Shown here: positions 23,901 through 39,808 of the stretch, piece after piece
How the letters are laid out: each line of letters starts with the position of its first letter
How positions within the stretch are numbered: the stretch's first letter is position 1
Source: Thermoplasmatota archaeon
GTDB lineage: Archaea > Thermoplasmatota > JAKEGO01 > JANQNJ01
Reading direction: 5' to 3'
Length of the DNA: 39,808 bases
Assembly: GCA_028279645.1 (NCBI GenBank)
Contig: JANQNJ010000160.1
Span: 1 to 39,808, forward strand
Made by a program: the position numbers and the translations under genes
The notes under the pieces: model-generated
Database searches by the model: none
Seen by the model: only the letters and a program-made list of their open reading frames with translations
Told to the model about the DNA's origin: nothing

Positions 23901-26900
23901 ATCCTGGTCCAACTGGACACTCTATACGGGCAACTTCACCCTGGAGGGTGAGTGTGTACACTATCTCGAATGGTATTCAGTGGACGAAAAAGGATACGAG
24001 GAGACCGTACGGAACCAGACCCATTATGTTGATCTCTCCGGCCCTGACGTTGGCAAGTACTTCCAGGGCCCGGTATTCGGTCGAAATTCTTTATGGGTGT
24101 CCTACTGGACCGACATCTATCTCTTCGCCATTGACAATGGCTGCATGGAGGGCGTCGGTGTTGACAAGGTCCTCTACCGGATATGGTGGAACGGGTCATG
24201 GTCGAACTGGACAGAGCTTCAGGAGTTCTTCTGGTTCGAGGAGGACTGCGTCCATTATCTTGAGTGGTATGCCATCGATCTACTGGGCAATGTCGGTGAG
24301 ACACAGAACCAGACCCACTACGTCGATACGGTAGCACCGACATCGTGGAAGACGATCACCGGGCCACAGTATGGAAACAACAGCCTATGGGTGACCGAGG
24401 ATACTGTGTTCAACCTGTCTGCCTATGACGAAGGCTGCATGGACGGAGCCGGGATCGATTACATCGAATACCGTATCTGGTACAAGGGAAAATGGTCGAA
24501 ATGGACGATCTACAAGGATAATTTCACCCTTGAGGGCGAATGTATGCATATCATCGAATGGCGCGCGGTGGACTATCTGGAGAACTCTGAGCTCGTCCAC
24601 AATCAGACACACTACGTCGATATATCCGGTCCAAGCGTATCAAAGCTCTTCTTCGGGCCGGTCTATGGCGAGGATGACCTCTGGCTGGCCAACTGGACCG
24701 GGATATACCTCACTGCAGAGGATACTGGTTGCAATGGCGGCGTCGGCCTCGACAGGATCAACTACCGGACTTGGTGGAACGGAAGCTGGAGCAATTGGGC
24801 CGTCTACGACGGACCCTTCTCCTTCCCGGAGGAGTGCGTTCACTATATCCAGTGGTACGCCGTCGATCTTCTCGGGAACTATGGACAGATCAGGAACCAG
24901 ACACACTACGTTGATACCTCTGCACCAACCAGTTTCAAGTACATCAACGGACCACAATATGGTACTGACTCCCTCTGGGTGACCGATGAGACCCAGTTCA
25001 CATTCTATGGTAATGATGCAGGATGCATGGACGGGGTCGGACTGGACAAGATCTATTATCGTATCTGGTACAACGGCTCATGGACGTTCTGGACCGAGCT
25101 CGAGGAGTCGTTCACCCTTAACGGCGAGTGTGTCCACTATATCGAATGGTATGCTGTCGATCATCTTGGCAACAAGGAAACGGTGCACAACCAGACCCAT
25201 TACGTAGATCTCACTGGTCCATCGGTCGGAAAGTACTTCGACGGACCGACCTACGGCCAGGACCACTTGTGGATATCCTCAGGGACAGACATCTACCTGA
25301 CGGCAACGGACGATGGATGCAACGGCGGCGTCGGCGTGGACGAGATATGGTATCGCTACCTTTGGAAGGGTCGTTGGACCCAGTGGATGCTGTATAGCGG
25401 TGGTTTCTACTTCTACGAGGAATGCGTCCACATCCTTGAATGGTTCGCGGTCGACCATCTCGGTAATGCAGGGGATACCGTTAACCAGACACACTATGTG
25501 GACAACGAGGCTCCGACGACGGATAAAGTGATCACCGGTCCTCAATACGGGAATAACAGCCTCTGGGTGACGAACGAGACCAAGTTCTATCTCAATGCGT
25601 CGGATGGCGGATGCCAGGACGGCGTCGGCCTTGACTATATCGAGTTCCGCATCTGGTACAACGGCACATGGACCGATTGGATCACGTACAACGGCTTATT
25701 CACCCTCGATGATGAGTGCACGCATTACCTTGAATGGCGGTCGGTCGACCTTCTCGGCAACTGGGAGCAGGTGAACAATCAGACCCACTATGTCGACAAC
25801 AGCGCACCCATCACCGTTGAGTTCATCTTCATGAACTATGGGCAGGACCCCATATGGATAGACAATGAGACCGAGATATACCTGACCGCTGTTGACGTCG
25901 GATGCCAGCAGAACGGTGTAGGTATCGATTATACCATGTACCGTATCTGGTACGACGGCTCCTGGTCCAACTGGACGACATACGAGAGCTACTTCTCGCT
26001 TGAGGATGAGTGCGTCCATCACATCGAATGGTATTCGGTCGACAGGCTAGGCAATGTCGAGTCGATCGGCAATGAGACCCACTACGTCGACATCTCAGGT
26101 CCGATCGTGATGAAGGACCTCAACGGACCGGTCTTTGGCCATGACATGCTATGGGTGACCAACGAGACAAGGGTCTCCCTCAATGCGCTGGACCAGGGCT
26201 GCATGGGCGGTGTCGGCCTTCGAAGTATCTACTATCGTATCTGGTGGAACGGAAGCTGGACGAACTGGACCGAGGATATCGTAGGGTTCTACTTCGAGGA
26301 AGATTGTGTTCACATCATCGAATGGTACGCGGTCGACATGCTGTACAACGAAGGCCCCACAAGGAACCAGACGCATTTCGTGGACTCGGTAGCACCGACC
26401 TCGAGCAAGGAGATAGCCGGTCCGGGCTACAATAACTATGAATGGGTCACCAACGAGACCGAGTTCAACCTCACCGCATATGACAGCGGATGCATGGGCG
26501 GTGTTGGTGTCGAATATACAGAATACAGGATCTGGCACAACGGCTCCTGGTCCGAATGGACGGTCTACACCGAGGACTTCAATCTCGAAGGCGACTGCAA
26601 GCATCATCTCGAGTGGCGCGCAGTTGACTATCTCGGCAATGCCGAGGAGGTGCACAATCAGACGCATTTCGTTGATTCCTCGGCTCCGATCACCAACAAG
26701 TCGGTCGGAAGACCCAACTTTGGACAGGATGCACTCTATGTGACCGAACAGACCCAGTTCACCCTGACAGCGATGGACCAGGGCTGTGATGGGGGTGTCG
26801 GTATCGCCTACACCGCCTACCGGATCTGGTACAACGGATCCTGGGACACCTGGACGCTCTACACTGGACCGTTCAGCCTGAATGGTGAGTGCACGCATTA

Positions 26901-27720
26901 CCTTGAATGGTTCTCTGAGGACCTTCTTGGGAACGTGGAGCAGTTCCACAACCAGACACACGAGGTCGACTTAACAGCACCGGTCACAACCGACGATCAT
27001 ACTGGTGGCTGGCGAAACACCGATGTCTTCGTCTACCTGAACGCTTACGATGCGAAATCCGGTGCGATCACATATTGGCGGGTTGACGGCGGTAACTGGA
27101 CGGCCGGAAACCTTGTGGTGGTATACGCACCGACCGATCACTCCAACGACGGCAACCATACGGTCGAGTACTACAGCGTCGACAACGTTGGCAACACCGA
27201 ATCAACACACAGCTTCCTCGTCCAGATCGATACGCGACCACCCGAACTGATAACGTACTTCGACGAGGGCCTCAAGAAGATCAAGTTCGACGTCGAGGAC
27301 GACAGAGATCCGGCTCCGACGCTCACACTTATGGTGAAGTTCGGGACGACGAGGATCTACAAGCTCGAGGATGATGCAGGCAACGTCGTGATCGTCAAGT
27401 TGAGGTACAAGACACAGAAGATCTCCGGATGGAAGATCCGAAAGGTGAACTTCAAGTGGATCTCATACAACAGCGGCCCGCAGCAGAGCCTTGCAGGAAC
27501 AGTATACGAGATCAAGTACAAGGCGAAGTCCGGCACCATCAAGAAGCTGAAGCAGAACGCGAAGACCAGAACATGGGTGATCGACGGTCAATATTCGACC
27601 GATACGGGGATGACAAGGATGCTCGTGTTCGATTCTGGAGTATCGTTCTACTTCTACGGTGGTCTAGAGACTGCTACGATGAGGACGAACGAGGGTATGA
27701 TGGAGTACATCTTGCCATAG
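11920..27720 (+). CDS. 5266-aa Ig-like repeat surface protein with inserted alpha/beta domain (gene 3)
   Basis: A signal peptide covers about residues 1-33 (MRDR start, hydrophobic 9-25). Residues 36-5021 are 47 Ig-like units of about 98 aa resembling OmpL47-type repeats. The usual unit reads TKTITGP.YDDG, WVTNET.FNLTA.D.GC, GGVGV..TWYRIWYNGSW, FTLEGEC.HYLEWY and a closing LGN..NQTHYVD. Most units carry two cysteines (D.GC and GEC.H), three to six N-X-S/T sequons and five or more tryptophans. Unit 4 is interrupted by a domain of about 320 aa (residues 368-687). A degenerate unit 48 (5022-5106, matching the TTTDDY domain of genes 1 and 2) and the shared C-terminal domain (5107-5266, ending YILP) close the protein. 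No membrane anchor is seen. A long, glycosylated, disulfide-pinned fibre or adhesin is inferred. No clear terminator follows, so readthrough into gene 4 is possible. Confidence 0.95.
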   Translation: MRDRSVSLGIVIGALFVIAIFLFLATATEEASGIIATKTIGDPKYDDGDIVWVTDQTEFNLTTGNPDHYIQYRVWYNGTWSEWINYTENFTLDGECLHELEWRASEFYGQWHEIQNQTHFVDSTPPITEKYVGLPYYLDSETNVTWVTNETKFELDPHDDGCEGGVGMNETWYRIWYNGNWTGWTFYNYTNPNENFTLDGECIHYIEYYSTDLLGNMETINNQTDYVDLTPPESFKVIIGPQLNQTMANETTNWVSSKTVLNITAEDHGCEGGSGIDHVSYRIWWRGKWSDWYKETGYGGTTPTGPGNGFSFDVTLIGECKHVIEWYTEDRVGHVSPTYNQTHYVDNKGPIVNKTIGEPKYWMGLEAKYEDSFVNGTYVIPFDEKQGDILHAFGFVQKVLETGHAYRVIERPNATLYTNLTPQGAVYTGGPILVPWYYGSEVGAAIQMFPNVTVLSLTQTFSWQNMLRLGKATEILIINGTWGHTYECLDSLGIPYDIVERSEYEDNPMMAYGYDLIVIDCPGWGFETIPYDVATILEDFAYRGGELMFNDISLLDMEVLFPEYVEVEGNVDTVHNFTFHYTDEFPGQYHGRTVLDIYTMGGGNIISQALHNDVKIMLDTDDYPYFTGSGYAIGAAYWQYGEGIVEGFAYHPQEQTPAYGCSNDSYNLSCIFYGNKFIHAAIEKGHWEVNLSTEINLTAYDIGCEGGVGVDQFEYRVYWNGSWSNWTLYDGNFTFTEECYHILEVNVSDKLGNWRIHNQTMTVDETPPVTQKIIGTPQYGEGMWVTEETMFTLTATDEGCDEGGVGVNATYYRIWYNGSWSNWTVYSQPFYLVGECIHHIEFYSVDNLGNVEMITNQTHYVDITAPVVNKSFDGPTYGQDDLWVTQNTDIYLIGTDKGCMGGVGMDKVWYRIWWNGSWSSWTEYEGMFNFTEDCFHYLEWYGVDLLGNQGEVLNQTHYVDTEGPTVDKWFDGPTSGSGDLWLTQGTHVFLNATDIGCMDGVGVDVIYYRTWWNGSWSSWIEYDRWFSFSEDCLHYLEWYSIDLLGNIGRTMNQTHYVDTVAPETHKTITGDQYGEDSLWIDDENYFYLNATDYGCEGGVGVNMTYYRVWYNGSWSAWLEYEQGFFLYGECVHYLEWYSVDWLGNTEQVQNQTHYLDLTAPSTTKGIGSPKYDDGNVTWVTNNTQFWLNATDDGCMDGVGVNHTWYRIWWNGSWTSWIEYEGSFTFDEDCTHILEWYSEDMLGNAEQVHNQTHYVDSTKPTILNRGFVGYGYYKGESFWCEDGYRRTLESTDRGCNNGVGINITAWRMWYNGSWSNWTYYNGFAYFNVNLTGECTHVLEVKAMDHLELWSDVYNETFFVDVTPPVTTKTIIGTQYDDGNVIWVTESTEFNLSATDYGCGGGAGVGKTWYNGSELREICYRIWYDGNWTSWMVYNGTFTLKGECEHIIEWYAVDWVNNTEETHNQTHYVDLTAPSSLKTITGPGVEGYTWVSNQTEFNLTSTDNGCMGGVGVDVIKYRIWYDGRWSSWTDYDGNFTMDGDCIHHLQWYAVDLLGNQEQINNQTHYVDITGPEINKTFEGPTYGQDDLWITKYTVIYLSGSDLGCMGGAGLEEIYYRFWWNGSWTQWRLFEESINFTEDCVHYLEWYGVDALGNEGEIKNQTHYVDTEAPVVIKEFSGPTYGQDDLWVSYWTDIYLNGTDKGCMGGVGMNKVWYRIWWNGSWSSWTEYDGYFFFDEDCVHYLEWYGVDLLGNQGEVLNQTHYVDTEGPSVDKWFGGPTYGQDDLWLTQGTDIYLNATDIGCMDGVGVDEIWYRIWWNGSWSNWTLFEEYFWFDEDCMHYLEWYAIDLLGNTGETMNQTHYVDTVAPTTSKSFSGASYGQDFLWISEDHYFFLNASDDGCDGGVGVNVTWYRVWYNGTWSQWMEHQDGFWLISECVHYLEWYSVDWLGNEEQVNNQTHYLDATAPNTTKGIGAPQYDDGEVIWVTNETQFWLNATDEGCMGGVGINHTWYRIWWNGSWTNWTEYNGSFTFDEDCVHYLEWYSEDILGNMEEVHNQTHNVDSWNASITFSMSPGYVESMDPLSFWISNQSNLSVYGYDDGCLRGVGLDHWGWRIWYDGSWTQWSNSTETFWILDECTHYLHTYAVDLLGNNGTSNITLYVDNTPPTSRRYTGGWPTVDDGEGNFFASESSLWSIGANDYGCNGGIGVNITYYRIWYNGTWTDWSEATHAYRFDGECTHSLEYYLVDDLGNTEAVQNDTYFIDMTAPVSTKTITGPQYDDQETIWVTDQTSFNFSAVDFGCNGGAGVLNITYRIWYNGSWSSWMEYDGNFTLEGECLHHIEWYAMDRVWNAEQVHNQSHYVDITGPKINKSFEGSTYGVDDLWVTQYTYIYLSGSDLGCIGGVGLDVIYYRIWWNGSWSVWKQFDESIYFMEDCVHYLEWYGVDLLGNEGEVKNQTHYVDTEAPVVIKYFSGPTYGQDDLWVSYWTDIYFNATDRGCMGGVGVNKTWYRIWWNGSWSGWREYDGGFWFPDDCLHYLEWFAVDLLGNTGQTINQTHYVDTEAPTSFKEIRGPEVEEYTWISNITWFNLTAYDNGCMGGVGVNYIEYRIWYDGTWSNWTKFKENFSMEGDCIHIIEWRAVDLLGNSEDVHNQTHYVDVTAPETIKSVSGLSYGRNYLWITEENVFYLNATDYGCMDGAGVNHTYYRIWYNGSWTQWMEYTQPFMLIGECVHYLEWYSVDYLGNYEEVRNQTHYVDLSGPTVDKWFDGPTYGQDDLWLSFWTDIHLNATDKGCMDGVGVDTIYYRFWWNGSWTQWTEYDEMFYFEEDCVHYLEWYAVDLLGNIGETRNQTHYVDTDGPSTSVSIEGPWYNYSYDAGNRTYYVWISDMTNITPSLSIDNGCMGGVGVDYLEYRTWYNGSWTNWTSVGLYVTLSFDEECLHLIEWRGIDLLGNLGPLSTFYLYVDITPPVTTKTITGTQYDDGEVIWVTEDTEFNLTAVDHGCEGGVGPLWTWYRIWYNGSWSNWTEYTGNFTLEGECMHIIEWYSTDLVNNTETIHNQTHYVDLTGPTVDKWFDGPTYGVEDLWVSFSTIIHLNATDHGCMGGVGVDKMYYRVWWNGSWTSWQEIEDWFHFAEDCIHYLEWYAVDLLGNIGETRNQTHYVDTEGPIVGKFFDGQTYGQDDLWMTNWTDIYLTALDQGCMGGVGVDEIWYRVWWNGSWTNWTKYDDVIIFEDCVHYLEWYAVDLLGNNGSTRNQTHYVDTVGPTVGKYFEGPTYDEDLWLTNNTFIGLTGTDQGCMGGVGLSSIWYRIWWNGSWSQWTQYTGSLYFDEDCFHILEWYGVDHLGNMGPIRNQTHYVDSIGPYVDKWFSGPTFGRENLWVSYWTNIYLNATDQGCNDGVGVDEIWYRIWWNGSWSKWIEYEDLFHFEEDCVHYLEWYAVDLLGNEGEIRNQTHFVDTEAPTSTKDISGPQWGNNSLWVTDETLFYLSAYDNGCNDGVGVKHIEYRIWYNGTWSNWTVYNGNFTLEGECIHYLQWRAIDLLDNYEITHNQTHNVDITAPWTRKNVGTPSFGEDDLWVTSSTLFGFTAFEQGCEGGAGLAGTNYRIWWQGSWTQWTTYDELFTLEREGNFSSQECVHYLEWYAWDILGNVEEVNNQTHYVDDTAPITNKTITGPQYDDGEVIWVTNETTFELTAEDDGCMGGAGVKEIWFRIWWNGSWTNWTQFVEPFTLDGECVHYIEWYAVDHLGNTEIIHNQTHFVDITPPETAKSIEGAYGQDDLWVTNNTYFFWSGFDKECNGGVGLANIYVRVWYNGSWSNWLDVYNWNGSFRLEGECVHYLEWYGVDRLGNEEDVHNQTHYLDMTPPETKKIITGFQWGPDSIIVNNETVFTLVPTDHGCMGGVGVRDTWYRIWYLGNWSQWIQYEGNFTMEGNCTHYLEWYSVDHLGNMEMVNNQTHKVNHIVRPTTNKTIVGPQFGNNSLWVTEETVFNLTATPGTFNYSATYYRIWYNGSWSNWTLYTGNFTLEGECVHYLEWYSVDEKGYEETVRNQTHYVDLSGPDVGKYFQGPVFGRNSLWVSYWTDIYLFAIDNGCMEGVGVDKVLYRIWWNGSWSNWTELQEFFWFEEDCVHYLEWYAIDLLGNVGETQNQTHYVDTVAPTSWKTITGPQYGNNSLWVTEDTVFNLSAYDEGCMDGAGIDYIEYRIWYKGKWSKWTIYKDNFTLEGECMHIIEWRAVDYLENSELVHNQTHYVDISGPSVSKLFFGPVYGEDDLWLANWTGIYLTAEDTGCNGGVGLDRINYRTWWNGSWSNWAVYDGPFSFPEECVHYIQWYAVDLLGNYGQIRNQTHYVDTSAPTSFKYINGPQYGTDSLWVTDETQFTFYGNDAGCMDGVGLDKIYYRIWYNGSWTFWTELEESFTLNGECVHYIEWYAVDHLGNKETVHNQTHYVDLTGPSVGKYFDGPTYGQDHLWISSGTDIYLTATDDGCNGGVGVDEIWYRYLWKGRWTQWMLYSGGFYFYEECVHILEWFAVDHLGNAGDTVNQTHYVDNEAPTTDKVITGPQYGNNSLWVTNETKFYLNASDGGCQDGVGLDYIEFRIWYNGTWTDWITYNGLFTLDDECTHYLEWRSVDLLGNWEQVNNQTHYVDNSAPITVEFIFMNYGQDPIWIDNETEIYLTAVDVGCQQNGVGIDYTMYRIWYDGSWSNWTTYESYFSLEDECVHHIEWYSVDRLGNVESIGNETHYVDISGPIVMKDLNGPVFGHDMLWVTNETRVSLNALDQGCMGGVGLRSIYYRIWWNGSWTNWTEDIVGFYFEEDCVHIIEWYAVDMLYNEGPTRNQTHFVDSVAPTSSKEIAGPGYNNYEWVTNETEFNLTAYDSGCMGGVGVEYTEYRIWHNGSWSEWTVYTEDFNLEGDCKHHLEWRAVDYLGNAEEVHNQTHFVDSSAPITNKSVGRPNFGQDALYVTEQTQFTLTAMDQGCDGGVGIAYTAYRIWYNGSWDTWTLYTGPFSLNGECTHYLEWFSEDLLGNVEQFHNQTHEVDLTAPVTTDDHTGGWRNTDVFVYLNAYDAKSGAITYWRVDGGNWTAGNLVVVYAPTDHSNDGNHTVEYYSVDNVGNTESTHSFLVQIDTRPPELITYFDEGLKKIKFDVEDDRDPAPTLTLMVKFGTTRIYKLEDDAGNVVIVKLRYKTQKISGWKIRKVNFKWISYNSGPQQSLAGTVYEIKYKAKSGTIKKLKQNAKTRTWVIDGQYSTDTGMTRMLVFDSGVSFYFYGGLETATMRTNEGMMEYILP
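13021..13980 (+). other. Alpha/beta (GATase1/ThuA-like?) domain inserted in an Ig-like unit, gene 3
   Basis: Residues 368-687 interrupt unit 4 between its KTIGEPKY strand and its NLTAYDIGC strand. Strand-helix alternation is clear: VIPFDEKQ, AFGFVQKVL, TGGPILVP, EILIINGTWGHTYECL, YDLIVIDCPGW, EDFAYRGGELMFND. The central part resembles the Rossmann-like fold of class I glutamine amidotransferase-like or ThuA-like domains, from recall only. A Cys in IDCPGW is kept in the gene 4 copy (VDCEGW), but it is not in the usual GxCxG elbow. No activity can be claimed. Confidence 0.6.
14518..18096 (+). repeat. Higher-order repeat: units 6-9 duplicated as units 14-17
   Basis: Units 6, 7, 8 and 9 (14518-15696) match units 14, 15, 16 and 17 (16921-18096) in order. 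Examples: D.GCMGGVGM.KVWYR with QGEVLNQTHY in 6 and 14; LTQGT and ATDIGCMDGVGVD in 7 and 15; SVDWLGN with NQTHYLD in 8 and 16; TTKGIG.P.YDDG and WYSEDMLGN/WYSEDILGN in 9 and 17. The offset is about 2.4 kb (eight units). Units 13-14 also match 21-22, extending the period. Confidence 0.75.
27238..27717 (+). other. Shared C-terminal domain, copy in gene 3
   Basis: 160 aa, the most diverged of the three copies but collinear: PPELITYF, KKIKF, KFGTTR.YK, DDAGN, KISGWKIRK, KWISYNSGPQQS, LKQ, MTRM.VFD and final EYILP. This shows the domain is shared by PKD-type and Ig-type proteins. Confidence 0.8.
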
Positions 27721-27993: not shown

Positions 27994-30900
27994 ATGAGAG
28001 AAAGGTCTGCTTTTAAAGGTATAGTTATTGCCATCGCTGTTCTCATAACGGGAATGGCCTTGCTGATGTTGATCGGCGGGAACGCCGACGCGGCGATATT
28101 GGTCGTGGATGACACAGCGGGGGGGTGGCGTGATCATTCCACCATCCAGGCAGCGATAAATGCGGCAAGTGCGGGTGATGAGATCCATGTCTATGCCGGA
28201 ACTTACAACGAGAACGTGGTCGTCGACGAGGAGATCGAGCTCAAGGGGAACGGCTCGGCGACGACGATCATCGACGGCGGGGACGCGGGAGATGTGATGT
28301 CCATTACCGCCAACAACGTTCTGGTCTGGGGTGGATTCAATATTTCGGATGGCGGTGATGATGTGGACCCCGATCCCGGTTCGTCGGTCCGCATCTATGG
28401 CAACAACGTGACGTTGACCGGCTGCATCTTCCATGGTAGCTCTCACGGGGTGTATTTCAGTGGCAAGGAGTCCGAGGTCCAGGCCTCCCGATTCCATTAT
28501 AACATAAGAGGAGCGATCATTCGCAACGAGGAGAACGAGATACTGACATCGAACTTCACATCGAACGTAGACAACGTCAATATCTACGTCAATTCGAATG
28601 GTTCGGACGTTGTCAACTGCGAACTGAACGGAGGTATCTATGGCGTCTATGTCTCCTCCGACCATGTCTCGATCAGCAGCTGCACAATATGGGGTGCTGA
28701 GTATGGTATCGATGTGGCCGGTGTCAAGGGCCTGAACGTCCGGTCGACGACGGTAAAGAAATCGACCAAGCACGGAATGAGGTTCATGAACACCGCTACG
28801 CAGATCCCACTTGTGAACAATTCCATGATCACGGGCTCAACGGTCTATGACGCCAGCCTCTACTCGGCCGATGTCATATTTATGGACACGACCTTCAGGG
28901 ATGGCGGATATCTTCTCGTCAACTCCACCTCGACCCTCTGGCTCAAGCAATGGCTCCACGTGAAGGTAAAGACGGATAACGGGGATCCCGTCGATAGCGC
29001 CGACGTTAGGATCACCGAGGGGACGACGAACCTTTACAAGACCCATGGATACGGTGGTGGCGATCCGGTTACCAACAACAAGGGAAATATACTGCCGCGA
29101 ATGGTCGCATATGGGAAGTATGACGCCTCATCACAGCAGACCGCCGTCAACTCTTCCATCGATGCGAAGAAAGAGGGCTGGAGCGAATCAAGAGCGATGA
29201 ACATGAGCTCGACTCATACCGAGACCTTTACGATATCGACCGCAATTGCATCCCTTTCTGTCGGTCAACCGCTCTACAATGATGGTTCCAACCTCTGGGT
29301 GACGGATGCCACACCTTTCAACCTTTCATCGGGCACCCCTGGTGCGATCATTCAATACAGGGTCTGGTATCAAGGAAACTGGACCTCGTGGTCCAACTAT
29401 ACTGGCAATTTCACTCTAACCGGGGAATGCATACATCATATCGAACACAGGGCTGGAGTATATTACGGTGTCTGGAGCTCCGTGACGAACCAGACGTTCA
29501 ATTTGGATCTAACAAAACCCAGAAGCGGTATCGCGTACACTGGCGTTTTTATAACGAAAGCGGGTTACTTCATCACTAACACCACTCTCATCACATTGAG
29601 CGGGGCGGATGAAGGATGCAATGGCGGTAGTGGAACCGATTCGACCTGGTACCGGATATGGTACAACGGTTCCTGGACCGGTTGGACCGAATATAGCTAT
29701 CCGTTCATGATGGGCGAAGAATGCATACACCATCTCGAATATTATTCGGTTGACAATCTGAACAATGTCGAGGATACCATCAACGAAACGTATTACGTTG
29801 ATCTAACGCCTCCATCGTCGACGAAGACGATCGGCGGTCCGAAGTACTGGGACGTTCACAGTCAGGCTTGGTGGGTGAATCACACAACTCCCTTCAACCT
29901 ATCAGCAACGGATGCCGGCTGCAATGGTGGTGTGGGGGTCAAGAATATCTGGTACCGGATCGGACTCTGGGACGAATGGACGTTCAACTATACATGGACG
30001 AACTGGACCAAGTACACCGGCGATTTCAACATATCCGAGGATTGCGAACATGTCATCGAATGGTACGCACAGGACTGGTGCCTCAACAATGAGACCGTGA
30101 ACACACAGACACATTACGTCGACGGCACACCGCCGGAAACCTCCAAGAGTTGGACGGAGCCGTTCTACGAGGATTACGAGAACGGCATCCTCTGGGTCAC
30201 AGATGAGACCGAGTTCAGTTTCACTCCATGGGATTCCGGATGTCAAGGGACCGGTGTCGGAGCGAACAAGACCTATTACAGGATATGGTACAATGGGACC
30301 TGGTCTGGCTGGACCGAGTTCAATTGGACAGATCTCAACGAATCATTCACGCTCAACGGTGAGTGTATCCATTATATCGAATGGTACTCGATCGATCTCC
30401 TCGGCAACAAGGAGCCTACGCAGAACGAGACAGATTACGTTGACCTAACACCACCCAATACCACGAAGACCATAGGATCACCACAGATGACCCGTTATGC
30501 TGGCAACCCAGTTGATTTCGGAACCTCACCTGTCCTTGAGGTCGACATGACCTATGATACGATCAACGACCGGACGGTAACGGTCTATCTTTTCGACAGC
30601 AACGGCACGACTGCAGGTGCGGCTCACGTAAGCCGGGTTCTTGGGACCCGCATGATATATGGTCCACCGCAATCGTTCTATAATGGTAATATCCGCGATC
30701 TATCGATAACCACTGCAGTATCCGGCAACAGCTCGAGCATTGTGATCACGTACAGCGATCTTGATAATTACGGCTACGGTACCGCAGTGGTTGGAAACCT
30801 AGTTGGGAACACCATTACCTTCGGATCGCCCACCGTGTTCACGAACGCTTCGGTCAATAATACTGCCGTTTGCTACGACACGGTGAACAGCACGCTGATA

Positions 30901-33900
30901 ATCGCCTATACGAACCAGTCATCCGGTAACTCATCGATGGTCGTACTGGGAACAATCACTGGCGCTCTTCTCTCCTTCGGGGAACCAACGCAGATCGACG
31001 CCACCACCACATGGAACATCGATTCGTTCTTCGATATCGAGACCGAGCTCGCGGTGTTCACTTACATCTCCGGCGGTCTAGGAATGGCGATGATGGGTCA
31101 TGTGAACGGAACATCCGGAGAGATCACGCTTGGTCCCGCAGCACCTTTCGAGATAGGTGGATGTGCCGCGGTCGACGCGAGGCCGCTGGGGAACAATCTG
31201 TTCCTCGTGGCCTGGATCAACGGTTCAGGCGACGGTCTGTACCGGTTAGGCTCCCACAATGGCGCCCAGACAATCAGCTTCACGGCAACGCAGGTGTTCG
31301 ACACTGGCCCCGTTCTCGATGTAGATGTCATATCGAGCACCGTCACTGAGGACTTCTTCATCTTCTACGAGCTGAACAGCGGTACCAAACTTACCCGTCC
31401 ATCCATGGACGGACCGGCTATCGATATCGGAATGTTCTTCGATGACAGCGCACCCGCTGGCCAGTACGAGGCGATCTTCGCGTTTGATGCCAACACTGGT
31501 GATTGGGAAGGCGACATCGTCCTTGTTGCTGCCGGCCACCCAACCGGTGCACAGGCACGTTCAAAGCTCGTACATTTCGATGGCGAAAAGGTGGGAACCC
31601 ATTGGGTCACCGGCAGAACGATATTCAACCTGAACGGAAGCGACGAGGGCTGCGAGGGCGGCGTCGGGACCGATGTCATCTATTACCGTATCTACTGGCG
31701 TGGAAGGTGGACCGATTGGATCGAGGTGAGGGACTATGGCTACGGCCAGGAGAACGCCTCAGGTGAGCTCGAGGTGAACTTCAGTCTCAGAGGGGATTGC
31801 AAACATATCCTTGAATGGTATTCGGTGGACCTCTTGAACAACAGTGAGACCGTTCATAACCAGACCCATTACGTGGACAATACGCCTCCGGAGATCTCGA
31901 AGACCATCGGCTCACCGAAGTACTGGTATCAGCAGTATCAGGACCTGGACACCTTCTGGTATGGGGACTATGTCATCCCGTTCGACGAGCACCAGGCCGA
32001 TATCGTCAAGGCCTTCGGCTTCGTACAGGAGGTCCTATCCGCCGGAGGACTGGCATTCAGGATCATCGAGAAGCCTGACATTACCCTCCGAACGAATGCA
32101 ACCCCCTCGGGGGAGCTATTCACCGGCGGTCCTATCATCATCCCGTCCTGGTACTGGATCGAGGTCGAGGGTGCTATGGAGAGCTTCGAGAACGTCACCG
32201 TTCTGACCCTCCAAGAGAACTTCACTTGGAACAAGACCCTGACGCTGATCCGGGACACGAACATCCTGATCATCAACGGGACCTGGGGGCATACGTACAA
32301 GTGCCTCGACGACATGGGACTCCCGTACGAGCTCGTCGAACGATGGGAGTTCGAGAACGACACGGCAATGGCCTACGAGTACGATCTGATCGTCGTCGAT
32401 TGCGAGGGATGGGTAAGCATGAACCTCGATAGCTCCACGATGCCTGCGAACGTCAGCTCGACCCTGGAGAACTTCGCTTATCATGGCGGTGAGCTGATCT
32501 TCACCGATATCGCTCTCCTTAATATGGAAGCTATGTTTCCTGACTATGTGGACGTCGTAACGAACGTTGACACGACACACAACTTCACCTTCCATAACAC
32601 CGACGAGTTCCCGAGCCAGTACTACGGACGATCACCACTGGATATTTACACAATGGTATCGGGCCAGATCATTGGCGATGTATATCATCCCGATGTCAAG
32701 GTGATGCTTGATACCGATGATTATCCGTACAGCAACGAACACAACAAGTTGGATGGCTACGCAGCGGCAGCAGTATACTGGCAGTATGGCGCGGGTATAG
32801 TGGAGGCTTTCGCCTACCATCCACCTGAACAGACACCCGCCTACAACTGCAGCGAGGACTCATACAACCTCAGCTGTATCTTCTACGGCAACAAGTTCAT
32901 CCATGCCGTGTTCGAGGAGGGTCACTGGGAGGTCAACCTGAGCACTTTGATCAATCTCACTGCCGTTGACGAGGGATGCGACGGCGGTGTCGGCCTCGAC
33001 TACATGGAATATCGCATCTACTGGAATGGCTCTTGGTCCGCATGGACAACGTATGTCGGCGATTTCAACTTCACCGAGGAGTGCTACCATATACTCGAGG
33101 CGAGGGCATACGATGCACTTGGAAACGTACGATACCACAACCAGACCATGACTGTTGACGAGACACCACCTGTATCCTACAAGGTTGTCGGTCAGCCGAA
33201 CCTGAACAATGGGTCGATAGTCGGACCCAACACCGAGTTCAACCTCACGGCGGTCGACTTCGGATGCCAACAGGGTGGTGTCGGCATCAGCGCGATCTGG
33301 TATCGTGTATGGTACAACGGGACCTGGAAGAACTGGACGAAATATGCAGGTAATTTCACTATGTCCGGCGATTGCACGCACTATCTGGAGTGGTACGCAG
33401 TTGATAATCTAGGCAATAAGGAAGCCGTGAGGAACCAGACGCACTATGTTGATGCGACCCCTCCGGATTCGATGAAGACGATCACCGGACCTCATGTGAG
33501 GCGACCTGTCGGCGATGTTGTGACCTATGATACTGATGTCAACGACCACGATGCTGTCGCTGTTGGAGATAACAAGTTCGTAATTGCATATACAACATAT
33601 TATAATGGTACGACAAGAACATTGCGAGCGATAGTCGGCTGGGTAGATTACGATACTCCTTATTACGGAACCCCGATCGAGCTTTATAATGGCAGTACAG
33701 GAAAGGTCCTTAAAGGAGTTGTATTCGACTCAGTCAACGATAGGATTATCGTTCTATACAATGAGATCGTGAATGGAACATATACCGGCTATGTCAGAGT
33801 CGGCGAGGTTTCCGGAATCACGATAAGCTTCGGTTCACCAGTGTCGTTAGGCAATGGATCACGAATCCTGTCCGCCGTAAGCGATCCAACAACAGGGACA

Positions 33901-36900
33901 GTCCTGATCGCATACAGGAACGAGGTCGATCTCAATGGCAAGGTTGTCGTGGGCAATGTGTCAGGAATGACGATCTCGTTCGGTACGCCGACGACCTTCC
34001 ATGCCAACGCGACGGGCACTGTGGAAATGGCAGTGGACACCGACGATGGCGGTATTCTCATCTGTTATATGAACATGACAAACGTAACTAACACGCGGCA
34101 TTACGCTTTGGTTGGCCTTGTGAACGGTTCATCAGTAGATCTAGGGGACATTGCGCTAGTTCAGAACCAATCCCTCAGCAGATTAACAATGGTATATGAT
34201 CCTGGCAATGACGCTTTTGCCATCGCTTTCACCGAGTCTTTGAATCCCGCTAAGATCGGTAAGGTATTGGTTGCACGAGTGAATGGAACAGCGATCTCCT
34301 TCGGAACTCCAAGTGTTTTCCATAATGCCGACCTCCCCGATCAGATGCTCTATACCCTCAGGTCAGCGTTCGATCCTGTTAACAATAAGTTCATTATCAC
34401 ATACGCTTCCGGTGGCACTCATACGGTTACAATGACCGGAAATGTAACGATCGGTCAGATCAGCGGTATGAATATCAATATCGGTCCTCCAGTTAGCTAT
34501 CATGTGTACCATACTGTGGATGCCCCTGTTCTATATCTCAACGATCATGGAGGCTTCGTCATCGCATGGAGATGTATGAACAGTACGAACCAACAGCGCG
34601 GCGAGTCCGCATTCACCAGGATCAGCGGATTCAAGATCGCGGAGGAGATCATTTGGGTGAACCAGACCACAATGTTCAACCTCACTGCGATCGACTCTGG
34701 CTGTAATGGCGGTTCAGGGATCTCGGATATCTGGTATCGCATCTGGTACAACGAAAGTTGGACCCAGTGGACAAACGACACAGGGAACTTCTCGCTGAGC
34801 GGTGAATGCAAGCACATCATTCAGTGGTACGCTGTAGACCGCATGGGGAACAATGAATCCCCCCATACTCAGGTCCACTATGTCGATCTTACTCCACCGG
34901 TGACCCAGAAATATATGAACACCGCATACGTACACGGGATGTACATACGAAACGACACCTTCTTCCTCTTTAGGGCCATAGATTGGGGATGCAACCTTGG
35001 TGTGGGTGTCAAGTACACGAAATATAGGATCTGGTACAACGGGTCATGGTCTACGTGGACCCGTTTCAATAGGACCAGGTTCTACATGCCCGAAGAATGC
35101 GTCCATCACATCCAATGGTATTCAGTTGATAAACTAGGTAACAAAGAGGTATCGAACAACCAGACACATTATGTGGATAGAACTCCTCCTGTCTCAGAGA
35201 AGGATATCGGTCTTCCACACTACGGTAATAACTCCCTCTGGGTCAATAGCTCATCCAAGTTCACATTGACAGCAGAGGATTATGGTTGTATGAACGGTTC
35301 TGGCGTCGGGAGTATATACTATAGGATATGGTGGAACGGGTCATGGACGAACTATTACCCCTCCTCCGGCGGTTGGCAAAGGTACACGGGGCCATTCAAC
35401 TTCACCGAGGAATGTCTGCATTATCTCGAGTGGTATGCCGTTGATATGAACAATAACAGGGAAGCTATCCGAAACCAGACCCATTATGTTGACCTCACTG
35501 CTCCAACCACCACGGTTAATGTTACAGGTCCGCAGTACGGCACATCACCATTGTGGATAACCGAATCCACTGTTTTCACTCTTAACGGCTCGGATAGCGG
35601 TTGCATGGGCGGTGTCGGCCTGGACGGTATCATGTACCGTATATGGTACAATGGCACTTGGGATACATGGAAGCTGTACACAGGCCCGTTCACAATGGCC
35701 GGTGAATGTGTTCATTACCTGCAGTGGTATGGCTTCGACAAGCTTGGAAATGAGGAAGCAAAACATAACAACACCTATTATTTGGACAAGACCGCACCGA
35801 TCACGAACAAGTCGATCGGAAACCCGAAGTTCCCATATGTTTACATAATGGGCGGTGACCCGATCGGCACATGGGTAACCAACACCACGCAATTCAACCT
35901 CAGTGCGACCGACCAGGGCTGCCAGAACGGAGTTGGTATCGACTGGACCACCTACCGTATCTGGTACAATGGAACCTGGAGTGCATGGCTTCTCTATATC
36001 GGCAACTTCACCATGGATGGCGAGTGCACTCATATTCTCGAATGGTACTCGATGGACCTCCTAGGTAACACTGAGACCGTGAACAATCAGACACACTATG
36101 TCGACAACTCGCCACCAGTTTCAACGAAGGCGGTTGGATCCCCGAGCTACAACGGAACTTGGTGGGTTACAAGCACCACGGAGTTCGAGCTCACAGCAGA
36201 AGACTTCGGTTGTGAGGAGAGTCCAGCTGGTATCGAGAAGATAATGTACAGGATATGGTACAACGGAACTTGGTCTGCTTGGAAGGTTTACAACGGTTCA
36301 TTCTCGCTCCAAGGAGACTGCATCCACTACCTCGAATGGTATGCTATCGACTACCTTGGAAACAAGGAGCAAACGCACAATCAGACGCATTACGTCGACA
36401 ATCTGGCTCCTGTGACAACGTTGAGCTATTCCAATCCGTGGTATTCGGACGGGGACCTGTGGGTGAACACGGATACATACATATATCTCAACGCTACCGA
36501 TCAAGGATGCAACGGTACGGGTGTTGGAGTCAAATTCACGAAGTTCAAGATCTGGTGGGACGGCGAATGGTCTGCGTGGATGAACTACACCGGACCTTTC
36601 CAGTTCACGGAAGAATGCTTGCACCATCTCGAGTGGTATTCTGAGGACCACCTTGGCAACTTCGAGAGTGTGAGGAATCAGACCTTTAAAGTAGACTCCA
36701 CCTATCCCATCGCAGGCATCTCCATTTCTGGACCCCGTTCAGGTGACTGGGCCACAAGTTCGACGGAGATCAGTTTATCTGCATTTGATCTGGGTTGTGA
36801 CGGTGGTGTCGGGGTGTCGTACCTCAAGTACAGGATCTGGTACGATGGTAATTGGACGCCTCTACTGACCCATAATGGTTCAACAATATACTTGGCCGGA

Positions 36901-39808
36901 GAATGCACTCATCATCTGGAGGGGTTCGCTGTTGACCATCTTGGAAACATGGAACCCGCCTGGAACACGACCTTCTACGTCGACAACACACCTCCGAACA
37001 CCACGAAGGAGTTCGGCTGGCCAAGATACGATGATGGCAACATCACCTGGTTGACTAGCCTGACTGATATTTGGATCAATGCCACGGATTATGGTTGTAT
37101 GCCGAACGGATCAGGGGTAAAGGAAAGCAAGTACAGGGTCTATTACAACAATCATTGGTCGGATTGGACGCATATCACCGGTTCCTTCACATTGAACGGC
37201 GAGTGCGTCCATATCCTGGAATGGTATTCGGTGGATAATCTCGGAAATAACCGTACCTGGAACCAGACCCATTACGTTGACGACACAGCTCCCAACGCTA
37301 CAAAAGAGGTAGGCGGACCATGGTATGGGACGAACTATACGTGGCTGAACACTAATTCGTGGATCTATCTGAATGCTACTGATGAAGGATGTCAGGGCGG
37401 TGTAGGGATGCAGTTCATCAAGTACAAGTACTGGTACAACGGCTCGTGGACCGGATGGATCACCTATACAGGGCCATTCAGGTTCTACGAGAACTGCACC
37501 CATATTCTTGAATGGTATGCAATGGATAAGCTTGGCAATAGTGATGGTATTCACAACTGGACGCACTATGTAGATGACGATTCTCCGATCACCGAATTCA
37601 GACTGTTCAATGTCTTCTACACCTTGAATACGCATGAATATGTCATTCCCACAAGCAGCGTCTTCGAAATGAACGGAACCGATAGCGGATGCAATGGAGG
37701 AGTAGGGATCGGATTCTACAGGTTTAGGAAGTGGTACAATGGAACATGGGACCCGTGGCTCGTAGATAATACCATTTCAATAACCTGGTCCTTCAGTACC
37801 GGATGCACGAGGATATTCGAGTTCCAGGCGATCGACAGAGTCGGAAATACTGGGCAAATGGTGAACGTTACGGTACATGTAGATGTCAAACCACCGATCA
37901 CCAATCTTACTACAACAGGACCTAGGTTCGGCCAGTATGTCACAAACACGACAAGGTTCCATCTGAATGCTGTTGAGCAAGGGTGCGTCAATGGAACAGT
38001 CGTGAACGAAACCAGATATAGGGTATGGCATTCAGGTAGTTGGAGTGGTTGGACCAACTATGTTGGTAACTTCACCCTCGCAAACGAATGTGTTCACATC
38101 ATTGAATGGAACTCTTCCGATCTCTTTGGTAACTATGAGACTACCCACAATCAGACCTTCTACGTAGATCTCATCGGTCCGACCAGCCATTACTCATTGA
38201 ATGCCAAGACCTATAGCAATGGGACCACCTCGTGGATCGGTAGTGGTGCCACTCCATACATCGTGCTACTCCCATCCGAAAACGGCTGCAACGGCGGTGC
38301 TGGAGTGAATAAGTCATACTATCGTATCTACTACCAAGGATCATGGACCAACTGGACCGATTATGGTCTAATGATCAACTTCCTTGGTGATTGCCAGCAC
38401 ACGTTCGAGTTCTATACGGTGGATAAGCTTGGCAACATCGGTGTAACGAATTCGGTCAATTACAACTATGACCGTACTCGCCCGAACTCCACTCTCAGGA
38501 TAGGACAACCGAACCAGACCAATGGTCTGTGGATCACGAACCAAACTCCGATCAATATCAGTGCTGTCGATTATGGTTGTCTAGGTGGTTCTGGGGTACA
38601 GGGAATCCTCTATATGACCTATTATAACGGTTCATGGTCGACCACCCAAGCCTATACGGGTAATTTCACGCTAACGAACGAAGGCCTCCATTATATCGTT
38701 CGATATGCGGTGGATAATGTTGATACCCAGGAACTCGCTCAGAACACTACTCATTACGTTGACCTCTCGGCACCAGAGACCACGAAGACCATTACTGGAA
38801 CCCAATACGGCCAGAACGGTCTGTACGTCACGGACACAACGTTGTTCAACTTGACCGCTGTGGAAAAAGGACCGAATGGAGGTGTCGGGGTTGCTGGAAC
38901 TTGGTACCGTGTTTGGTATAATGGCTCATGGACCTCCTGGATCGGATATACAGAACCGTTCTACCTTAGCGGCAACTGCACACACATCCTCGAGTATTAT
39001 TCGAAGGACAAGCTCGGAAATGAAGAGGCCCATCACAATCAGACGCACAAGGTCAACCACTTCGTTCCGCCGACCACCGTGAAGACCATAATCGGGCCGA
39101 AACACGGTCAGAACGACGAATACGTCCTAGATACAACGATATTCAACCTAACAACGATCAACGGCAGCGCTGCTGTCAATCACACATATTACCGGATCTG
39201 GTACAATGGCACATGGACGAACTGGACCGAGTACTCTGGCAATTTCACTCTATCCGGTGAATGCACCCATTATATCGAATGGTACTCCGTGGATGTATTA
39301 GGCTTCACTGAGGCAACGAACAACCAGACACATTATGTAGACCTTTCGGCGCCAGAGACGATTCATACCATCACGGGAATACTTGAATCTATCAATGATA
39401 CAGCCAGCTGGGTCGTGAAAGGGACCACTCTATCCCTCACAGAGAATGATAAAGGATGCAACCTTGGCTCCGGGGTCATGCTGATCTATCATCGTACATG
39501 GTTCAACGGAAGTTGGACGAACTGGTCGGTTTACAGCGGAGACTACCATCATAACATTGAGGGCAAGTATCATCATGAGTTCAGGTCGGTCGATAACCTG
39601 GGCAATTGGGAGGACGTGGTCAATGAAACCTTGATCGTCGATGATTCAGCCCCCACGACCGAGATCACCTGGTACGGGAACACATTCGATGACGGCCGGT
39701 TCTGGGTAGGCCACCACTCAGCGAACTTCACACTAACTGGCACTGACCAAGGTCCTGCCGGCGGTGTAGGTCTTGAATCGACCTGGGTCCGGATATGGGA
39801 TGACGGTT
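27994..39808 (+). CDS. Giant beta-helix and Ig-like repeat surface protein, 3' partial (gene 4)
   Basis: The frame is open for at least 3938 codons to the right edge, where it breaks off inside a repeat (WVRIWDDG). A signal peptide covers about residues 1-34 (MRERSAF start, hydrophobic 9-28, then NADAA). A right-handed beta-helix (about 35-315, opening STIQAAINAASAGDEI) is followed by a CarboxypepD_reg-like Ig domain (WLHVKVKTDNGDPVDSADV, to about 418). At least 25 Ig-like units of the gene 3 type follow from residue 419. Units 5, 6 and 8 carry inserts: propeller-like block 1 (832-1199), the alpha/beta domain (about 1310-1649) and propeller-like block 2 (1834-2216). Sequons are dense. Units 1 to 7 line up with units 1 to 5 of gene 3, so the genes are paralogs. 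The end is expected to carry the shared C-terminal domain, but this is not visible. Confidence 0.93.
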   Translation, partial: MRERSAFKGIVIAIAVLITGMALLMLIGGNADAAILVVDDTAGGWRDHSTIQAAINAASAGDEIHVYAGTYNENVVVDEEIELKGNGSATTIIDGGDAGDVMSITANNVLVWGGFNISDGGDDVDPDPGSSVRIYGNNVTLTGCIFHGSSHGVYFSGKESEVQASRFHYNIRGAIIRNEENEILTSNFTSNVDNVNIYVNSNGSDVVNCELNGGIYGVYVSSDHVSISSCTIWGAEYGIDVAGVKGLNVRSTTVKKSTKHGMRFMNTATQIPLVNNSMITGSTVYDASLYSADVIFMDTTFRDGGYLLVNSTSTLWLKQWLHVKVKTDNGDPVDSADVRITEGTTNLYKTHGYGGGDPVTNNKGNILPRMVAYGKYDASSQQTAVNSSIDAKKEGWSESRAMNMSSTHTETFTISTAIASLSVGQPLYNDGSNLWVTDATPFNLSSGTPGAIIQYRVWYQGNWTSWSNYTGNFTLTGECIHHIEHRAGVYYGVWSSVTNQTFNLDLTKPRSGIAYTGVFITKAGYFITNTTLITLSGADEGCNGGSGTDSTWYRIWYNGSWTGWTEYSYPFMMGEECIHHLEYYSVDNLNNVEDTINETYYVDLTPPSSTKTIGGPKYWDVHSQAWWVNHTTPFNLSATDAGCNGGVGVKNIWYRIGLWDEWTFNYTWTNWTKYTGDFNISEDCEHVIEWYAQDWCLNNETVNTQTHYVDGTPPETSKSWTEPFYEDYENGILWVTDETEFSFTPWDSGCQGTGVGANKTYYRIWYNGTWSGWTEFNWTDLNESFTLNGECIHYIEWYSIDLLGNKEPTQNETDYVDLTPPNTTKTIGSPQMTRYAGNPVDFGTSPVLEVDMTYDTINDRTVTVYLFDSNGTTAGAAHVSRVLGTRMIYGPPQSFYNGNIRDLSITTAVSGNSSSIVITYSDLDNYGYGTAVVGNLVGNTITFGSPTVFTNASVNNTAVCYDTVNSTLIIAYTNQSSGNSSMVVLGTITGALLSFGEPTQIDATTTWNIDSFFDIETELAVFTYISGGLGMAMMGHVNGTSGEITLGPAAPFEIGGCAAVDARPLGNNLFLVAWINGSGDGLYRLGSHNGAQTISFTATQVFDTGPVLDVDVISSTVTEDFFIFYELNSGTKLTRPSMDGPAIDIGMFFDDSAPAGQYEAIFAFDANTGDWEGDIVLVAAGHPTGAQARSKLVHFDGEKVGTHWVTGRTIFNLNGSDEGCEGGVGTDVIYYRIYWRGRWTDWIEVRDYGYGQENASGELEVNFSLRGDCKHILEWYSVDLLNNSETVHNQTHYVDNTPPEISKTIGSPKYWYQQYQDLDTFWYGDYVIPFDEHQADIVKAFGFVQEVLSAGGLAFRIIEKPDITLRTNATPSGELFTGGPIIIPSWYWIEVEGAMESFENVTVLTLQENFTWNKTLTLIRDTNILIINGTWGHTYKCLDDMGLPYELVERWEFENDTAMAYEYDLIVVDCEGWVSMNLDSSTMPANVSSTLENFAYHGGELIFTDIALLNMEAMFPDYVDVVTNVDTTHNFTFHNTDEFPSQYYGRSPLDIYTMVSGQIIGDVYHPDVKVMLDTDDYPYSNEHNKLDGYAAAAVYWQYGAGIVEAFAYHPPEQTPAYNCSEDSYNLSCIFYGNKFIHAVFEEGHWEVNLSTLINLTAVDEGCDGGVGLDYMEYRIYWNGSWSAWTTYVGDFNFTEECYHILEARAYDALGNVRYHNQTMTVDETPPVSYKVVGQPNLNNGSIVGPNTEFNLTAVDFGCQQGGVGISAIWYRVWYNGTWKNWTKYAGNFTMSGDCTHYLEWYAVDNLGNKEAVRNQTHYVDATPPDSMKTITGPHVRRPVGDVVTYDTDVNDHDAVAVGDNKFVIAYTTYYNGTTRTLRAIVGWVDYDTPYYGTPIELYNGSTGKVLKGVVFDSVNDRIIVLYNEIVNGTYTGYVRVGEVSGITISFGSPVSLGNGSRILSAVSDPTTGTVLIAYRNEVDLNGKVVVGNVSGMTISFGTPTTFHANATGTVEMAVDTDDGGILICYMNMTNVTNTRHYALVGLVNGSSVDLGDIALVQNQSLSRLTMVYDPGNDAFAIAFTESLNPAKIGKVLVARVNGTAISFGTPSVFHNADLPDQMLYTLRSAFDPVNNKFIITYASGGTHTVTMTGNVTIGQISGMNINIGPPVSYHVYHTVDAPVLYLNDHGGFVIAWRCMNSTNQQRGESAFTRISGFKIAEEIIWVNQTTMFNLTAIDSGCNGGSGISDIWYRIWYNESWTQWTNDTGNFSLSGECKHIIQWYAVDRMGNNESPHTQVHYVDLTPPVTQKYMNTAYVHGMYIRNDTFFLFRAIDWGCNLGVGVKYTKYRIWYNGSWSTWTRFNRTRFYMPEECVHHIQWYSVDKLGNKEVSNNQTHYVDRTPPVSEKDIGLPHYGNNSLWVNSSSKFTLTAEDYGCMNGSGVGSIYYRIWWNGSWTNYYPSSGGWQRYTGPFNFTEECLHYLEWYAVDMNNNREAIRNQTHYVDLTAPTTTVNVTGPQYGTSPLWITESTVFTLNGSDSGCMGGVGLDGIMYRIWYNGTWDTWKLYTGPFTMAGECVHYLQWYGFDKLGNEEAKHNNTYYLDKTAPITNKSIGNPKFPYVYIMGGDPIGTWVTNTTQFNLSATDQGCQNGVGIDWTTYRIWYNGTWSAWLLYIGNFTMDGECTHILEWYSMDLLGNTETVNNQTHYVDNSPPVSTKAVGSPSYNGTWWVTSTTEFELTAEDFGCEESPAGIEKIMYRIWYNGTWSAWKVYNGSFSLQGDCIHYLEWYAIDYLGNKEQTHNQTHYVDNLAPVTTLSYSNPWYSDGDLWVNTDTYIYLNATDQGCNGTGVGVKFTKFKIWWDGEWSAWMNYTGPFQFTEECLHHLEWYSEDHLGNFESVRNQTFKVDSTYPIAGISISGPRSGDWATSSTEISLSAFDLGCDGGVGVSYLKYRIWYDGNWTPLLTHNGSTIYLAGECTHHLEGFAVDHLGNMEPAWNTTFYVDNTPPNTTKEFGWPRYDDGNITWLTSLTDIWINATDYGCMPNGSGVKESKYRVYYNNHWSDWTHITGSFTLNGECVHILEWYSVDNLGNNRTWNQTHYVDDTAPNATKEVGGPWYGTNYTWLNTNSWIYLNATDEGCQGGVGMQFIKYKYWYNGSWTGWITYTGPFRFYENCTHILEWYAMDKLGNSDGIHNWTHYVDDDSPITEFRLFNVFYTLNTHEYVIPTSSVFEMNGTDSGCNGGVGIGFYRFRKWYNGTWDPWLVDNTISITWSFSTGCTRIFEFQAIDRVGNTGQMVNVTVHVDVKPPITNLTTTGPRFGQYVTNTTRFHLNAVEQGCVNGTVVNETRYRVWHSGSWSGWTNYVGNFTLANECVHIIEWNSSDLFGNYETTHNQTFYVDLIGPTSHYSLNAKTYSNGTTSWIGSGATPYIVLLPSENGCNGGAGVNKSYYRIYYQGSWTNWTDYGLMINFLGDCQHTFEFYTVDKLGNIGVTNSVNYNYDRTRPNSTLRIGQPNQTNGLWITNQTPINISAVDYGCLGGSGVQGILYMTYYNGSWSTTQAYTGNFTLTNEGLHYIVRYAVDNVDTQELAQNTTHYVDLSAPETTKTITGTQYGQNGLYVTDTTLFNLTAVEKGPNGGVGVAGTWYRVWYNGSWTSWIGYTEPFYLSGNCTHILEYYSKDKLGNEEAHHNQTHKVNHFVPPTTVKTIIGPKHGQNDEYVLDTTIFNLTTINGSAAVNHTYYRIWYNGTWTNWTEYSGNFTLSGECTHYIEWYSVDVLGFTEATNNQTHYVDLSAPETIHTITGILESINDTASWVVKGTTLSLTENDKGCNLGSGVMLIYHRTWFNGSWTNWSVYSGDYHHNIEGKYHHEFRSVDNLGNWEDVVNETLIVDDSAPTTEITWYGNTFDDGRFWVGHHSANFTLTGTDQGPAGGVGLESTWVRIWDDG
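30487..31590 (+). other. Beta-propeller-like block 1 inserted in Ig-like unit 5 of gene 4
   Basis: About 368 aa between KTIGSP and GTHWVTGRTIFNL. Short repeats recur: FGSPTVFTNA, FGEPTQI, YGPPQSFYNG, and V.YD...STLIIAYTN. From memory, the theme V.G..I.FG.P..F with YD..N...IAY occurs as multi-copy repeats in phage-tail-like and marine giant proteins. Five or six blades are likely. The fold is inferred. Confidence 0.5.
31921..32940 (+). other. Alpha/beta domain inserted in Ig-like unit 6 of gene 4
   Basis: The second copy of the gene 3 insert, at the same place in the repeat. Shared landmarks in order are YVIPFDE.Q, TGGP, ILIINGTWGHTY.CL, YDLIV.DC.GW, FAY.GGEL.F.DI, DEFP.QY.GR, LDIYTM, MLDTDDYPY, YWQYG.GIVE.FAYHP, EQTPAY.C and IFYGNKFIHA. 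Conservation is markedly higher than in the surrounding repeats, suggesting a constrained function. Confidence 0.65.
33493..34641 (+). other. Beta-propeller-like block 2 inserted in Ig-like unit 8 of gene 4
   Basis: About 383 aa between KTITGP and EEIIWVNQTTMFNL. Six motif copies are visible: YGTPIELYNG, FGSPVSLGNG, FGTPTTFHAN, LGDIALVQNQ, FGTPSVFHNA and IGPPVSYHVY, about 60 aa apart, each followed by a D...N..IIAY-like strand. This fits a six-bladed propeller. Confidence 0.5.

Follow-up and report, generated by a model that had tools for sequence, protein, structure and literature searches.

The Gram-positive pilus adhesin RrgA carries a ligand-binding VWA domain nested within an Ig-like domain. 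In bacterial RTX adhesins, such arrangements are known as 'split Ig-like domains', in which a single first strand precedes the insert (PMC10865825). In FrhA of Vibrio cholerae, for example, a first strand of 12 residues is followed by the ligand-binding domain and then by 106 residues, a single-strand split that is based on an AlphaFold2 model fitted by its authors to a SAXS envelope, and in AhLap of Aeromonas hydrophila the chain exits after the first strand as well. The giant adhesin SiiE comprises 53 tandem Ig-like units.

Here, we describe split Ig-like units in a window of 39 808 nucleotides, i.e. the whole stretch of DNA analysed (contig G000:C168), which is part of the genome of a Thermoplasmatota archaeon (2.24 Mb, 82 % complete). 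The window contains four giant ORFs, all on the forward strand. The main constituent of genes 3 and 4 is a 98-residue unit belonging to the NCBIfam OmpL47-type domain (NF047446), with roughly 75 Ig-like units in the two giant proteins (Table 1). Gene 4 scored 507.6 bits against this family, the curated cut-off of which is 40, and the gene 3 units match it likewise. Among named genomes, the closest repeats were found nearly all in MAGs of Thermoplasmatota.

Gene 1 (positions 2-5293) is an array of near-alike PKD domains, and the high similarity of these sequences suggests a recent expansion of the array. Genes 1, 2 and 3 all end with a domain of ~160 residues (4799-5290, 11145-11630 and 27226-27717, respectively), which was found only once elsewhere in the genome (G000:C40:3500-3976) and may function in cell anchoring or in sorting.

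Table 1. Giant genes 3 and 4 with their split and selected plain units and inserts (positions within the window)
Feature	Position	Strand	Description	Basis
Gene 3	11920..27720	+	5266-aa protein of ~47 OmpL47-type Ig-like units, of which one close to the N-terminus is split	ORF, unit profile, NF047446 matches
Gene 3 unit 3	12598..12951	+	Uninterrupted; counterpart of gene 4 unit 5; candidate 'empty site'	Colinear alignment
Split Ig-like unit (unit 4 of gene 3)	12952..14205	+		Profile
Alpha/beta insert, gene 3 unit 4	13003..13962	+	P0002 residues ~362-681	
Gene 3 C-terminal domain	27226..27717	+	Candidate cell anchor, also present in genes 1 and 2	
Gene 4	27994..39808	+	Giant protein, open at contig end; at least 28 Ig-like units following a beta-helix-like N-terminal region	
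Split Ig-like unit (unit 5 of gene 4)	30439..31872	+		Profile
First beta-propeller insert (unit 5)	30493..31596	+	P0001 residues ~834-1201	
Split Ig-like unit (unit 6 of gene 4)	31873..33153	+		Profile, AF2
Alpha/beta insert of unit 6	31924..32913	+	P0001 residues ~1311-1640	
Gene 4 unit 7	33154..33447	+	Plain, flanked by split units 6 and 8	Profile, AF2
Split Ig-like unit (unit 8 of gene 4)	33448..34881	+		Profile, AF2
Second beta-propeller insert (unit 8)	33499..34644	+	P0001 residues ~1836-2217; seven blades counted in model	

The insertion point within the repeat unit

A repeat profile of 98 positions was built from 39 uninterrupted units and run over genes 1 to 4. Its columns were kept fixed; iteration without fixed columns swelled the profile to 280 positions and was abandoned. 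The first-pass annotation, which was made from the sequence of the window, had claimed that units 5, 6 and 8 of gene 4 are interrupted at one fixed site and that an insert in gene 3 uses the same point. By the profile, all four insert-bearing units, i.e. these three and unit 4 of gene 3, indeed share one break: the left pieces correspond to profile positions 1-17 or 1-18, profile matches of the right pieces begin at position 15-16, and the unit is resumed by about position 23. In gene 4 unit 8, the profile matches extend into the insert from both sides (1-58 and 10-98), with the break in the sequence unchanged. The break falls in the consensus stretch YGEDSL, which links the first strand to the WVTxxTxFxLTA strand, and every insert of the window lies 3' of a VDxTPPxxxKTIxxPx segment and 5' of a WxxxTxFxLTAxD segment. 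MAFFT alignment of plain unit pairs with unit 6, for which no break point was supplied, likewise gave a split at position 17. Mapping of the boundaries, proposed at the outset as a check, hence places them in one position in all four units, the flanking halves of which fit one repeat profile. Moreover, the insert boundaries are supported by more than the repeat profile, since free-standing homologues of the alpha/beta insert start and end at approximately the same points. Among 64 plain units, small changes in length within the unit were commonest at the same stretch, i.e. the A-B loop.

Structure prediction, the second check proposed, supported the Ig-like host and yielded a propeller for the insert of unit 8; the alpha/beta insert was modelled with a pLDDT below 50. 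In the AF2 model of units 6-7, this insert was covered by two sequences of the alignment, while the left piece of the split unit reached a pLDDT of 83-89 and the bulk on the right was mostly at or above 90. The model of units 7-9 had a mean pLDDT of 85 and showed the unit 8 insert as repeated beta structure, in which seven blades were counted by eye from the sequence and the strand list. Foldseek searches of the PDB and viral sets returned propellers for this insert, including Sec12 with a TM-score of 0.70 by target length, and by AF2 and Foldseek together it has a propeller fold. For the Ig-like part, the closest solved fold was that of the BIg domains of SiiE, and the extender domains of RTX adhesins were matched too. 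As modelled, the host unit is of the Ig-like (BIg) fold; it is discontinuous, i.e. the first strand is followed by the insert and then by the bulk of the domain. The secondary-structure strings of both AF2 models contain short strands on either side of the insertion point (16-19/351-354 and 114-117/499-502), which may form a two-stranded neck.

It could be argued that the repeat was cut wrongly, i.e. that the true start of the domain lies past the loop and strand A is part of the preceding unit, making the inserts ordinary inter-unit domains, and NF047446 indeed spans only 68 positions, starting at about position 23, just past the insertion point. However, the left segment was modelled confidently as a strand in both AF2 models with the preceding unit absent (pLDDT 83-89), while the last unit folds well in the models without a following strand A. 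The spacing of the units is also rigid, with 568 of the 660 inter-unit pairs at most 2 residues off the expected value, and in FrhA the model fitted to the SAXS envelope likewise has a split after a single strand. We therefore regard a misplaced repeat boundary as very unlikely.

Insert families and their relatives

The inserts of units 5, 6 and 8 had been taken for three unrelated domains, but they fall into two families. The propellers of units 5 and 8 are homologous, with 30 % identity in an alignment of 518 columns (E 1e-41), and the two alpha/beta inserts, in gene 4 unit 6 and gene 3 unit 4, share 63 % identity. The alpha/beta pair lies within a longer colinear stretch, in which residues 252-875 of gene 3 correspond to residues 1202-1833 of gene 4 with 58 % identity over ~630 residues (636 columns), and therefore represents one insertion followed by duplication. 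Considering the two insert families and the duplicated alpha/beta segment, the window accounts for two or three independent events. Gene 3 unit 3 shares 46 % identity and a long W-to-F loop with the joined flanks of gene 4 unit 5, suggesting from their alignment that these are the empty and filled copies of one unit; it is not the best match to the joined flanks, two other gene 3 units being slightly higher.

GC content and codon use of three of the four inserts are close to those of the gene 3 units. In codon use, the second propeller (33499-34638) departs from these units, with a value of 9.3 vs a control mean of 4.8 (SD 1.5).

Relatives of the propeller are viral-contig proteins built of the same blades, and the family is also present in a few genomes of Thermoplasmatota. 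At locus L016, the propeller family is part of an ORF with an N-terminus reading like an archaellin or pilin; it is also found in L015, the C-terminus of which reads like that of a sorted surface protein. Free-standing homologues of the alpha/beta insert were detected by a wider genome search in two other Thermoplasmatota genomes, which belong to two other families. These proteins match the insert over nearly its full length and have an apparent signal peptide, as read by eye; one of them (L197:2626-3645) adjoins an ORF reading like signal peptidase I and a membrane protein. No relatives of the alpha/beta insert were found in GTDB r220, which was searched with a peptide pattern, or in viral contigs, and when a GATase-like or ThuA-like fold was checked, there was no Pfam match and no significant PDB match. 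The second alpha/beta-like domain of L063 showed no detectable relation to the alpha/beta insert of the window.

Sialidases were among the Foldseek matches of the propeller, and the C-termini of three related giant proteins (L028, L151 and L156) appear dockerin-like by eye, with two Ca-binding-like loops, as might be expected if the inserts were catalytic rather than adhesive, e.g. glycan-degrading propellers, and the stalk an extracellular enzyme scaffold. No catalytic Pfam family matched the inserts, however, and the sequence relatives of the propeller are the viral and archaeal repeated-blade proteins mentioned above, which makes an enzymatic role quite improbable.

Insertion sites across Thermoplasmatota

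Several dozen loci were surveyed from Thermoplasmatota genomes rich in the OmpL47-type repeat, some of them chosen for a partial match seen. Units were parsed by four anchors, replacing a dynamic-programming parse with free-length inserts that had forced false units into unrelated domains. This resulted in 33 long gaps in the A-B loop, 14 in the B-C loop, 12 in the C-F region and nine between units. After quality filtering and merging of similar inserts, there were 28 distinct events, a count that varies with the clustering threshold, i.e. 16 in the A-B loop, eight in the B-C loop, three between units and one in the C-F region. The share of the A-B loop (16 of 28) compares with 7.2 events expected (p 4e-4), and with the window left out this loop still holds 13 of 25 distinct domain-sized events vs 6.4 expected (p ~0.004). 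The A-B loop is the preferred insertion site, and other loops are used too.

The first-pass annotation had proposed that the loop is a general docking point for functional domains. This stands insofar as nine insert families, mutually unrelated by BLAST, occupy it across Thermoplasmatota; it does not stand as an exclusive rule, since the B-C loop, the C-F region and the inter-unit gaps receive domains too. The further insert types that had been anticipated at the same loop in other genomes do occur in relatives: LamG (Laminin_G_3, E 1e-28), MAM-like (choice_anch_J/MAM, E 7e-28), VWA with a match just at the cut-off, choice_anch_R with a weak match, and several inserts without a family name. 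The A-B insert of L060 is choice_anch_R-like, and L063 and L151 carry longer, composite inserts at this site, in which the same domain is accompanied by a second one. MAM-like inserts are also found in the B-C loop (L143 and L140). One unit (L073:7999-9132) apparently bears two MAM-like inserts, of which the first occupies the A-B loop and the second a later position. In addition, a 165-residue A-B insert (L142:10571-11065) contains the motifs GWCVDQ and DIQEAIWYF, which resemble thioester adhesion domains; it had no match in Pfam or NCBIfam.

Considering that the A-B loop varies in length in plain units also, that other loops accept inserts too and that most inserts have no known function, the A-B loop might be merely the most permissive surface loop and its inserts neutral passengers without a shared role. 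On the other hand, the nameable inserts are typical extracellular binding or adhesion domains, i.e. LamG, MAM-like and VWA, the inserts of the window are all confined to the first eight units of each array, and the alpha/beta domain has kept its 63 % identity between paralogues. Neutral passengers are therefore an unlikely explanation.

Proposed role and comparison with known systems

We consider it likely that the products of genes 3 and 4 are adhesins or attachment proteins, in which a stalk of Ig-like units includes split units presenting domains at the A-B loop. Both genes encode giant, probably secreted, sequon-rich stalk proteins of tandem bacterial-Ig-like units, presumably located at the cell surface with the N-terminus facing outward. 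While the plain units would form the stalk, the split units would hold domains projecting sideways, which most likely bind sugars, proteins or surfaces; among the roles considered, that of an adhesin appears the most likely for genes 3 and 4. In a split unit, strand A would come first, the chain would then exit at the A-B loop, run through a complete extra domain and return to form strands B to G. The loop may be tolerant because its two ends make up a short two-stranded neck, so that a domain with its own ends close together could be inserted while leaving both the sandwich and the adjacent units intact. In the course of evolution, the site would have received different domains, been duplicated and grown by further additions.

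Most giant surface proteins of archaea lack annotation. If a split unit marks a binding domain, as proposed for RTX adhesins, their functional parts could be found by sequence alone and many unnamed inserts would become testable candidates. The inserts also provide a natural record of which Ig-like loop takes whole domains, which is of use in protein engineering. It is tempting, if still tentative, to see in the A-B loop of OmpL47-type units a plug-in site for binding domains throughout the phylum Thermoplasmatota that arose independently of the bacterial RTX adhesins; scanning for split units would then reveal where many uncharacterised giant proteins of archaea have their binding domains.

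A limited search of the open-access literature returned no description of archaeal split Ig-like domains. The general principle is nevertheless already known, and what had been put forward as a design rule of this family has been described as 'split Ig-like domains' in bacterial RTX adhesins. With FrhA, AhLap and MpIBP, the proteins of the window share a sequence-discontinuous Ig-like domain within very long tandem Ig-like arrays. In contrast to these, they are archaeal, belong to the OmpL47-type Ig-like family, carry other insert families and have their split units near the N-terminus instead of in the C-terminal part. The RTX nonapeptide GGxGxDxx[LIVF] was not found in the four proteins of the window, of which that of gene 4 has an incomplete C-terminus; as judged by this motif, they are not RTX adhesins. 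While the archaeal units score above the curated cut-off of the OmpL47-type family, its name implies a beta-barrel, whereas the model of the archaeal unit is Ig-like. SiiE resembles them as the closest solved fold and as a giant adhesin of tandem Ig-like units, but it is a type I secretion substrate with only ~16 % sequence identity to the archaeal units. RrgA likewise has a domain nested within an Ig-like domain, although of another Ig-like family. Taken together, the split units of genes 3 and 4 are an archaeal variant of the known split Ig-like design.
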